Program-made: the position numbers and the translations under genes | Shown here: one piece after another, positions 38,583-43,619 of the stretch | How the letters are laid out: each line of letters begins with the position of its first letter | Position numbering within the stretch: position 1 is the stretch's first letter | From: Rubrivivax sp. | Lineage (GTDB): Bacteria; Pseudomonadota; Gammaproteobacteria; Burkholderiales; Burkholderiaceae_C | DNA length: 64,000 bases | Assembly: GCA_026125665.1 (NCBI GenBank) | Contig: JAHCKS010000007.1 | Location: 44,596-108,595 of the forward strand | Reading direction: 5' to 3' | Notes under the pieces: generated by a model | Told to the model about the DNA's origin: nothing | The model's input: the letters and a program-made list of their open reading frames with translations, nothing else | Database searches by the model: none

Positions 38583-41393
<2,811 letters not shown>

Positions 41394-41441
41394 TACGCCG
41401 TTGCGTTCGATGACATGGAACGCGTGCGCGAGGTCGTGGCG

Positions 41442-41556
41442 CGCCGAGGACGCCGGGTGGTCGGCTCCGCGAATGTCCTCTTTGAGCGGCCCAGCTTCGC
41501 TGGTCCCCTCAATGCCCCCTTGATTTCGCTGCACCGACCACCCGGCGTCCTCGGCG
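41442..41556 (+). repeat. Structured inverted-repeat element, copy A
   Basis: A 115-base element. Perfect 22-base arms (41443-41464 starting GCCGAGGACGCC, and 41534-41555) enclose a 69-base core. The core starts CTCCGCGAATGTCCTCTT, has CCAGC-TTC-GCTGG in the middle, and ends CCCCCTTGATTTCGCTG. It lies 49 bases after the metH stop. It is not coding by any visible sign and looks like a REP/MITE-type element. Confidence 0.8.
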
Positions 41557-41599
41557 TGGCACCCGTGTTGGCCTTGGCTCGTGTGCCACTGCGGGTGCC

Positions 41600-41716
41600 G
41601 GATCGGGACGGCGGGGTGCCCTGCGCAGCGAAATCAAGGGGGCATCAGGGGGACCAGCGGAGCTGGGCCGCCTGAAGAGGACATTCGCGGAGCAGGGCAC
41701 CCCGTCGGCCCGATCC
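41600..41716 (-). repeat. Structured inverted-repeat element, copy B (opposite orientation)
   Basis: A 117-base element, the reverse complement of copy A in its core (about 88% alike by eye over 67 bases). Its 24-base arms (41601-41624 and 41692-41715, 22 of 24 paired) differ from those of copy A. The two copies are 43 bases apart, head to head. The rest of the 450-base gap (41717-41843) holds no gene; it contains the leader of the DUF1800 gene. Confidence 0.8.
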
Positions 41717-41843
41717 CCCCACGGTCCGTCGCCGTGCGATCCAATCCTTCGGTAACGCCAGCGAACGATTCCAGCGTTCGGACACGCGCGCAGGCGCAGC
41801 GCGGCTCCCACAATGCCCGCCATCGTTGCCGGAGCATGCGGCC

Positions 41844-43619
41844 ATGAAGTTCAGCCAAGTCCGATGCACCTTCCTCGCCTTGGCGGCGGCTGCGGCGCTG
41901 GCCGCCTGCGGCGGGGGTGGCGGCGCGGACGGTTCGTCGCCCAGCCCCTCGCCGGCGCCTGCGCCGGCGCCGGCACCCGGGCCAGAGAAGCCGGCCACAC
42001 GCGACGAAGCGGCGCGTTTCCTCGCCCAGGCCACCTTCGGCCCGGTCGACGCCGACATCGACCGCCTGATGGACATCGGCTACGCCGCGTGGATCGACGA
42101 GCAGTTCGCACGCGCGCCAGCGCAGACGCACCGCGCGCACTGGGAAACGCGCGATGCCGAGATCAAGGCCGCCAACGCCACGGCCAGCGCCGGCCAGAAC
42201 GAGTTCTTCGAGTCGTTCTGGAAGCAGGCCGTCACCGGCCCCGACCAGCTGCGCCAGCGTTTGGCCTTCGCGCTGTCGCAGATCTTCGTCGTCTCGCTGG
42301 TCGACGGCACCGTGGGCGACAACCCGCGTGCCGTCGCCGCCTACCTCGACATGCTCGCCGACAAGGGCTTCACGACCTACCGCGAGCTGCTCGAGCAGGT
42401 GTCGCGCCATCCGATGATGGGCATCTACCTGTCGCACCTGCGCAACCAGAAGGCCGACGCCCGCACCGGTCGCGTGCCCGACGAGAACTACGCGCGCGAG
42501 GTGATGCAGCTGTTCTCCATCGGCCTCGTCGAGCTGGCCGAGGACGGCAGCGTGCGCACCGGCGCCGGCGGCGCGGCGCTCGAGACGTACACGCCGGCCG
42601 ACATCTCCGGCCTGGCGAAGGTGTTCACCGGCTGGAGCTGGGACTGCCCGGCCTTCCCGGCCAACAGCTGCTTCACGAGCGGTGCCAGCGGCGGTGTCTC
42701 CGACCCCGACCGCAGCTTCAAGCCGATGCTCGGCTACGCGCAGTACCACGCCACCGAAGCCAAGACCTTCCTCGGCACGACGATCGCCGCGCAGGCCACC
42801 GCCGACCCGGCGGCGAGCCTCGCCGCGGCGCTCGACCGCCTGGCCACGCACCCGAACGTCGGGCCGTTCATCGGCCGCCAGCTCATCCAGCGCTTCGTCA
42901 CCAGCAACCCGAGCCCGGCCTACGTGGGCGCGGTGGCGCGCGCCTTCGCCGACAACGGCACCGGCGTGCGCGGCGACATGAAGGCCGTGCTGAAGTCCGT
43001 GCTGATGCACCCCGAGGCGCGCACGGTCAGCGACACCTCGGGCAAGGTGCGCGAGCCGGTGCTGCGCCTCTCGGCCTACCTGCGTGCCTTCCCGCACGCC
43101 AGCGACTCGGGCCACTACCGCATCGGCGCCACCGACAACCCGGGCACGCAGCTCGGCCAGTCGGCGCTGCGCTCGCCGTCGGTGTTCAACTTCTACCGGC
43201 CGGGTTTCGTGCCGCCGGGCACGGCGACGGCGGCGCGCGGCCTCGTCGCGCCCGAGCTGCAGATCGCCAGCGAGACGAGCGCCGCGGGCTACGTGAACTA
43301 CATGCGCGACGGCGTCTCGGCGGGCATCGGCATCACCGCCGGCGCGCCGTTCAACCGGCGCGACCTGCAGCCCGACTTCAGCGCCGAGCTGGCGCTGGCC
43401 GCCACGCCGGCGGCGCTCGTCGACCGCGTCACCTCGCGCCTCACGTACGGCTCGGCCGGCACGGCGCTGAAGGCCGAGATCACGAACGCCGTGGGCGCGA
43501 TCAACGTGCCGGCAGCGAACGGGTCGAACCAGGCGCAGATCGACACCGCCCGGCGCAACCGCGTCAACGCGGCGATCCTGCTGACGCTGGCGTCGCCCGA
43601 GTTCGTGGTGCTGAAGTGA
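41844..43619 (+). CDS. DUF1800 domain lipoprotein
   Basis: A 591-residue exported protein. The signal ends at a lipobox (ALAACGGG, Cys about 22), followed by a Pro/Ala-rich spacer. Then the DUF1800 core: ATRDEAARFLAQATFG, LRQRLAFALSQIFVVS, YAREVMQLFSIGL, GRQLIQRFVTSNPS and VLRLSAYLRAF. The function of DUF1800 is unknown; members are nearly always paired with DUF1501 proteins, as here (17-base gap). The start at ATG 41844 gives a proper lipoprotein signal; the upstream Met at 41826 does not. Upstream is the repeat pair at 41442-41716. Confidence 0.88.
   Translation: MKFSQVRCTFLALAAAAALAACGGGGGADGSSPSPSPAPAPAPAPGPEKPATRDEAARFLAQATFGPVDADIDRLMDIGYAAWIDEQFARAPAQTHRAHWETRDAEIKAANATASAGQNEFFESFWKQAVTGPDQLRQRLAFALSQIFVVSLVDGTVGDNPRAVAAYLDMLADKGFTTYRELLEQVSRHPMMGIYLSHLRNQKADARTGRVPDENYAREVMQLFSIGLVELAEDGSVRTGAGGAALETYTPADISGLAKVFTGWSWDCPAFPANSCFTSGASGGVSDPDRSFKPMLGYAQYHATEAKTFLGTTIAAQATADPAASLAAALDRLATHPNVGPFIGRQLIQRFVTSNPSPAYVGAVARAFADNGTGVRGDMKAVLKSVLMHPEARTVSDTSGKVREPVLRLSAYLRAFPHASDSGHYRIGATDNPGTQLGQSALRSPSVFNFYRPGFVPPGTATAARGLVAPELQIASETSAAGYVNYMRDGVSAGIGITAGAPFNRRDLQPDFSAELALAATPAALVDRVTSRLTYGSAGTALKAEITNAVGAINVPAANGSNQAQIDTARRNRVNAAILLTLASPEFVVLK

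Follow-up and report, generated by a model that had tools for sequence, protein, structure and literature searches.

The gap between the genes for the cobalamin-dependent methionine synthase (metH, ending at 41393) and a DUF1800 protein (starting at 41844), both named by Pfam, holds two facing stretches of DNA that resemble each other in the window, the whole analysed stretch of 64,000 nucleotides from Rubrivivax sp. An earlier note had regarded them as a small mobile or structured element of the MITE/REP kind, or as a pair able to fold into a long cruciform. The locus therefore raises the question of whether the two stretches belong to one element and, if so, what maintains its form and on which strand.

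The two stretches, half A (41442-41556) and half B (41600-41716), were found to have a common core in inverted relative orientation, with arms that differ between A and B and are self-complementary within each, and to lie outside protein genes, all as the earlier note had described. Half A is an A-type hairpin whose purine-rich and putatively functional strand is the minus strand; other full-length copies in the same genome are 84-97% identical to it. Its outer arms, read on the plus strand at 41442-41464 and 41534-41556, pair at 23 of 23 positions and enclose the two sides of an internal loop recognised by alignment conservation on the minus strand (41465-41481, including CCGCGAATGTCC, and 41513-41533, including CCCCCTTGATTTCGCT), between which lies an inner hairpin (41482-41512) with a co-varying stem and a C(GAA)G triloop, also on the minus strand. 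A spacer of 43 nt (41557-41599) leads to half B, a B-type hairpin with a C(GGA)G triloop and with the plus strand as its purine-rich strand. The B arms (41600-41624 and 41692-41716) form Watson-Crick pairs at 23 of 25 positions, the remaining two being one G.T wobble on the plus (purine) strand and one A.G mismatch. The unit extends beyond the halves, with a terminal inverted repeat of about 10 nt outside each arm and further conserved flank in some copies, and totals about 300 bp at this site. The left repeat (41432-41441) has the consensus GGTCGTGGCG, columns -10 to -1 outside arm A being identical in 29-39 of the 40 pairs of this genome; the right repeat (41717-41726) has the own-genome consensus CGCCAC[C/G][A/G]CC and is degenerate in the window copy.

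The paired element and its relatives

Searches of the genome that holds the window (G000; 6.28 Mb, 268 contigs, 88.6% complete) gave full-length matches with 84-100% identity to A and 83-100% to B among the best 40 candidate places scored per search. A covariance model of the half-element (R1, built from 35 sequences) identified at least 91 halves, 80 of them in at least 40 pairs; these are lower bounds from 150 scored candidates, after 49 of the 140 listed matches were dropped as opposite-strand duplicates or, in one case, as partial. Neighbouring halves are head to head in 40 of 40 pairs, and the gap between them is 40-49 nt in 36, the remaining four having 73, 80, 80 and 115 nt. The likeness of A and B is not due to chance, since it recurs in 91 matches and 40 pairs of a single relative orientation. 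Eleven halves were without a found partner, some of them at contig ends or next to a remnant. The left flanks of five own-genome loci (L168, L178, L184, L198 and L207) carry partial tandem repeats of the terminal repeat and the start of arm A, and the downstream flank of L205 carries a degenerate additional half-like stretch.

The element is present in many environmental Burkholderiales. In the genus survey with R1, 34 of the 60 genomes gave matches, seven of them at least 30 with both strands counted, while an even sample of the order (200 genomes) gave at least seven matching genomes, the own genome included; surveys that covered more than 40 genomes were run with stricter filters and scored few candidates in each genome (62 in the genus survey, 19 in the order sample). 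A scan for the fixed-loop pattern returned at least 116 stretches. Among the 80 titles listed were Rubrivivax, Rhodoferax, Ramlibacter, Hydrogenophaga, Variovorax, Pseudorhodoferax, Polaromonas, Methylibium, Aquabacterium and Rhizobacter, together with Rhodocyclales records (including Sulfurisoma) and one possibly misbinned bin of Stagnimonas, which we take to be a gammaproteobacterium. A distant search with the window element, confined to plasmids and phages, matched one Variovorax megaplasmid and no phage.

A second covariance model (R2, built from 59 sequences) was applied to 117 named or plasmid loci and yielded 204 halves, kept from 226 rows once opposite-strand matches were dropped. Neighbours within 1 kb face each other in 80 of 83 cases, as counted by a script that pairs head-to-head halves only, with the three other arrangements listed separately: L237 and L293 in the same orientation, and L296 in reverse orientation, 935 nt apart. 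The same-orientation halves lie 402 nt apart at L293:1149-1754 and 137 nt apart at L237:1-300, where one is cut by the locus end. The gap of the named pairs is 40-60 nt in 63 of 80. Two arm types can be distinguished, and 42 of 49 pairs combine an A-type with a B-type half against 24.5 expected, a few genomes being present twice in this count. It was thus confirmed that A and B together make up one element, of which its own genome has at least 40 paired copies and which has relatives across the Burkholderiales. Further copies had been proposed as the test in the earlier note and proved to be many; to its question of whether they are always paired, the answer is that pairing is the rule and is not universal, as 44 named halves are unpaired, 29 of them away from locus ends. 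In a Brachymonas sp. bin, the halves of L252:6570-7567 flank 797 nt with a TumE toxin gene and a MarR-like partner gene (Pfam), which looks as if the pair can carry cargo; this is the one case among the named loci of halves flanking a gene.

A conserved fold read on one strand

Read on the purine strand, a half consists of an outer stem of about 23 bp, followed by a G.A pair, one varying pair and an A.G pair, then two G-C pairs and, further inward, an internal loop opposite GGRGGACAT, an inner stem variable in sequence and length, and a small terminal loop, the whole being mostly 90-130 nt long. The outer arms and the inner hairpin vary across species and remain paired, and the purine-rich internal loop is fixed. 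In 59 aligned halves, selected for pairing at 18 or more of the 22 arm positions (as seen in 358 of 384 motif hits), 94.6% of the cells pair against 64.8% when shuffled and 37-43% when slid, and 33 of the 34 pairs change on both sides across species. The invariant columns sit in or next to the internal loop; the arms are not fully free, as a GGG block is present in 54 of the 59 and a GGG(T)G block is nearly invariant. The loop itself covaries: G.A and A.G are followed by G in 40 of the 59 halves, G-C and A-T by A in 19, with no exceptions, and its two R positions are A/G in 41, G/A in 14 and other combinations in 4. A fixed inner loop between stems that vary and stay paired suggests that something recognises a single strand, of DNA or RNA, by its folded form.

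The mismatches in the outer arms are strongly asymmetric. Read on the pyrimidine strand they comprise 210 A.C, 18 G.T and 86 others, so that wobble pairs on the purine strand stand to the opposite mismatch as 210 to 18. Taken by genome key, 108 favour the purine strand, five the reverse and 10 are ties (sign test 3e-26); one half was counted per key (123 keys, 2706 cells; loci L288-L323 counted singly and two genomes included twice), and the 7 of 384 halves in which fewer than 12 of the 22 arm positions pair were omitted. One strand is therefore read as a fold, and with the constraint one-stranded, a symmetric long cruciform is not the best description of the element. On paper the whole unit can nevertheless form a single long hairpin of A with B (-128.7 kcal/mol under DNA parameters, against -52.2 and -50.4 kcal/mol for the separate purine-strand halves); this better predicted fold counts against a model of separately folded halves.

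The same data bear on the explanation that the element is an ordinary MITE with long palindromes that play a passive part: template switching during replication would keep the stems perfect, and nothing would recognise the structure. Such quasi-palindrome correction perfects stems and changes both arms together, and the orthologous sites L283 and L306 indeed differ by a block of compensated arm changes. It predicts, however, neither a strand preference of the wobble, contrary to the 210 against 18 observed, nor an unpaired loop fixed across genera, nor the bias in loop type described below, and is considered very unlikely.

Movement, gene context and the nature of the folded strand

The metH and DUF1800 genes are adjacent without the element in four related genomes (G012, G055, G009 and G059), in which the joined gene flanks of 11 further own-genome sites were also searched. 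Four of the 11 (L175, L178, L161 and L164) gave one unbroken match in G012 across the junction. At L175, 373 nt of G000 are absent in G012, and the site is empty in G055 and G009 too; at L178, 516 nt in G000 correspond to 46 in G012, with an empty site in G009 as well; and at L161, 335 nt correspond to 18. At L171, G012 has an empty site (gap 104 nt), G055 has the element and G009 a partial half, and at L157 the element adjoins the left flank in both G012 and G055; for the other five sites the flanks were not found adjacent or the gap was ambiguous. Empty orthologous sites in relatives show that the element moves, on the scale of species, and together with the copy number and the covariation they support the earlier view of a small mobile, structured element. 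The copies L006 and L010 share 99.7% identity over 327 bp within different flanks. Gene neighbourhoods that include the element also recur across species, in one set at L232, L266, L283 and L306 (L259 in part) and in a second at L221, L240 and L279 (L265 and L269 in part), and the neighbour genes of shared sites recur at several Hydrogenophaga-type loci. As these sites are common to several species, part of the copies must be old. The target-site duplications that the earlier note had proposed to look for were not found among the 40 own-genome pairs: the best 3-mer recurs in 9 of 40 against a mean of 7 and a maximum of 10 in shuffles, and longer words are not above shuffles. In its own genome the element thus shares its terminal inverted repeats with a MITE of a DDE insertion sequence and differs in that no such duplication was seen.

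None of 51 own-genome sites overlaps a called gene; of the 40 pairs, 15 are in convergent gaps, 25 in codirectional gaps and none in a divergent one. The 79 named pairs with a gap of at most 200 nt comprise 67 judged, two overlapping a called gene and 10 without a neighbour; the judged pairs lie in 26 convergent, 38 codirectional and three divergent gaps, compared with 11, 95 and 65 among 171 background gaps of at least 100 nt without the element, a depletion of divergent gaps with P 2e-8; these and the own-genome counts rest on genes called by a crude script. At 53 of 154 adjacent 3' ends the element lies 20-39 nt from the stop codon.

In a subset of own-genome copies, an extra conserved flank ends in the ribosome-site-like GGAGCAACTGAG (or close variants) directly before the next start codon, and this flank suggests that the next gene may still be translated when an insertion falls within an operon. 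An operon-junction subfamily of this genome (L158, L168, L178, L184, L191, L195, L196, L203 and L206) has TGAAACCTGTGCAGG-like flanks after the upstream stop and GGTGGAGCAACTGAG-like flanks just before the downstream start codon. The conserved AAAGGAGG was considered as a ribosome site and rejected, the adjacent ATG being ATT in most own-genome copies.

Placement at 3' ends would fit a bidirectional transcription terminator or a supercoiling site that happens to be mobile. The unit is without a T-run, however, and few 3' ends have a terminator-like hairpin, whether the element is present (6 of 186) or absent (12 of 281), so that replacement of terminators is not evident; a fixed internal loop would also be left unexplained, and the idea seems extremely improbable.

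The same placement, behind stop codons and with divergent gaps at 3 of 67 named and 0 of 40 own-genome pairs, also suits an RNA element at mRNA 3' ends, in which the purine strand would fold as RNA and bind a protein or block exonucleases, the inverted pair ensuring that one working hairpin is included in transcripts from either direction. The wobble pairs and the G.A covariation agree with this explanation, tolerance of G.U and G.A pairs being equally typical of RNA. Against it, a small number of copies are located downstream of an intrinsic terminator (at 6 of the 100 3' ends judged) and no Rfam family matches: with the Rfam 15 covariance models the window gave no match at the gathering threshold, and at E of 10 or less the sole matches of the element were to mir-4891 (25.8 bits against a cut-off of 100) and to a frameshift element (19.4 against 40). 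The orientation of unpaired halves, judged for 25 of the 44 named ones, also speaks against RNA, as the purine strand is antisense to the genes in 10 of the 12 that lie in codirectional gaps (P 0.04); in the own genome it is antisense in one and sense in two, which favours RNA, the two sense cases resembling remnants of pairs.

The inner loops point in the same direction as the antisense halves. In 209 unique cores (of 223, 14 being unparsed), 159 have loops of three nucleotides, 126 of them C(GNA)G; outside the own genome, C(GNA)G loops occur at 67 or more of 123 loci, with two GNRA and no UUCG loops, the tetraloops of RNA type. Other palindromes with three-nucleotide loops in the same DNA have a C-closed GNA loop or its complement, on either strand, in 23 of 294 cases. 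GNA triloops are found in RNA too, and the ViennaRNA tables do not separate triloop sequences and are uninformative on DNA versus RNA. In PMC4686876, GNA and GNNA loops closed by two or more G-C pairs are described as giving DNA mini-hairpins of extraordinary stability, with a melting temperature of 78 degrees for GCGAAGC. With C(GNA)G triloops dominant and RNA-type tetraloops rare, folded single-stranded DNA is favoured; the triloop bias and the antisense unpaired halves favour DNA over RNA, and none of this is proof. The RNA explanation is thus the most serious of the alternatives and, on the whole, rather unlikely.

Candidate recognition and known repeat families

Passages of PMC3733652 and PMC8266576 describe REP, REPIN and BIME sequences as extragenic palindromes in head-to-head dimers, often heterodimers (for which the former notes a preference), one strand being recognised by TnpA_REP as folded single-stranded DNA, including an irregularity of loop or stem. 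A REPIN proper, that is a REP dimer moved by a RAYT/Y1 transposase, would account for the head-to-head arrangement (40 of 40 own, 80 of 83 named neighbours within 1 kb), the strand-specific irregular hairpin and the extragenic sites; strand asymmetry is observed in the present element, and folded single-stranded DNA is inferred from its loops. The element is nevertheless at variance with REPs in several respects. The GTAG/CGTC tag is absent next to the arms, both in the 59 sequences (arms and about 1 nt of flank) and in the own-genome flanks, where the repeat is GGTCGTGGCG. The halves are three to five times longer than REP/REPIN units of 20-40 nt, and their stems are largely free in sequence around a fixed internal loop. 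The Y1 transposase (PF01797) shows no association, occurring in 15 of 34 carriers and 14 of 26 non-carriers (P 0.6), and gave no hit in G000, G012, G055 and G059, four of the five genomes with most matches, two of these four being less than 90% complete. The element is REPIN-like as a dimer in its logic and fails three defining REP features, namely tag, size and transposase association; that it is a REPIN proper is scarcely credible. No recurrent transposase was noticed among 311 neighbour proteins by clustering rather than family search, the largest clusters (10 and 5 members) being by eye an ABC ATPase and metabolic genes.

The attC sites of integrons are likewise recognised by the fold of one strand, with variable stems and unpaired features, and have conserved R/L boxes. 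In contrast, no attC-like box stands at the alignment ends of the 59 sequences, and the element occurs as scattered single pairs, whereas attC sites occur in arrays. ERIC, NEMIS/Correia, RUP and BOX are small intergenic repeats suspected of mobility, which to our knowledge have not been characterised as a pair of independent hairpins containing a fixed purine loop. They are named as repeats in PMC3110155, in which the beta-proteobacterial repeat element BRE (Hot et al. 2011) is described from Comamonadaceae and Alcaligenaceae, and known from Bordetella, as a GC-rich, mostly intergenic and suspectedly mobile sequence of about 90 bp, with conserved sequence and tandem at many loci in up to 8 copies; section 14 of that paper mentions no inverted pair or hairpin. 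BRE is the nearest published repeat found in our literature search, and is set apart by its description: none of the 40 own-genome neighbours is tandem, and there are two same-orientation neighbours among the 204 named halves. Neither this repeat, as described, nor the Rfam models place the element in a known family; membership of a known repeat family was one ground that the earlier note had named for withdrawing its proposal.

With a probability slightly above one half (about 0.53), we consider the element to be a non-autonomous mobile element made of two different, facing hairpin halves, each read as a folded single DNA strand. In each half, a largely free outer stem of about 23 bp would be followed by a fixed purine-rich loop, stabilised by G.A pairs, and by an inner stem that in most cases ends in a GNA triloop; a putative structure-recognising enzyme, supplied in trans, would bind the folded purine strand. 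The inverted arrangement would give each DNA strand one recognised hairpin; the two arm types may hinder A-B pairing between the halves. The element would be retained where it does little harm, just behind stop codons, its location thus probably reflecting mainly tolerance. More tentatively, and at somewhat less than even odds, it may represent a previously undescribed mobile class in which a folded single DNA strand is recognised through a fixed G.A-rich loop with near-free stems by a non-Y1 enzyme, typically as an A/B heterodimer serving either strand.

The element supplies hundreds of naturally occurring folded strands that combine one fixed motif with diverse stems, and makes it possible to test directly which factors other than HUH transposases and integron integrases recognise folded single-stranded DNA in bacteria. 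If the RNA explanation were true, it would instead be a widespread structured RNA at 3' ends without an Rfam family.
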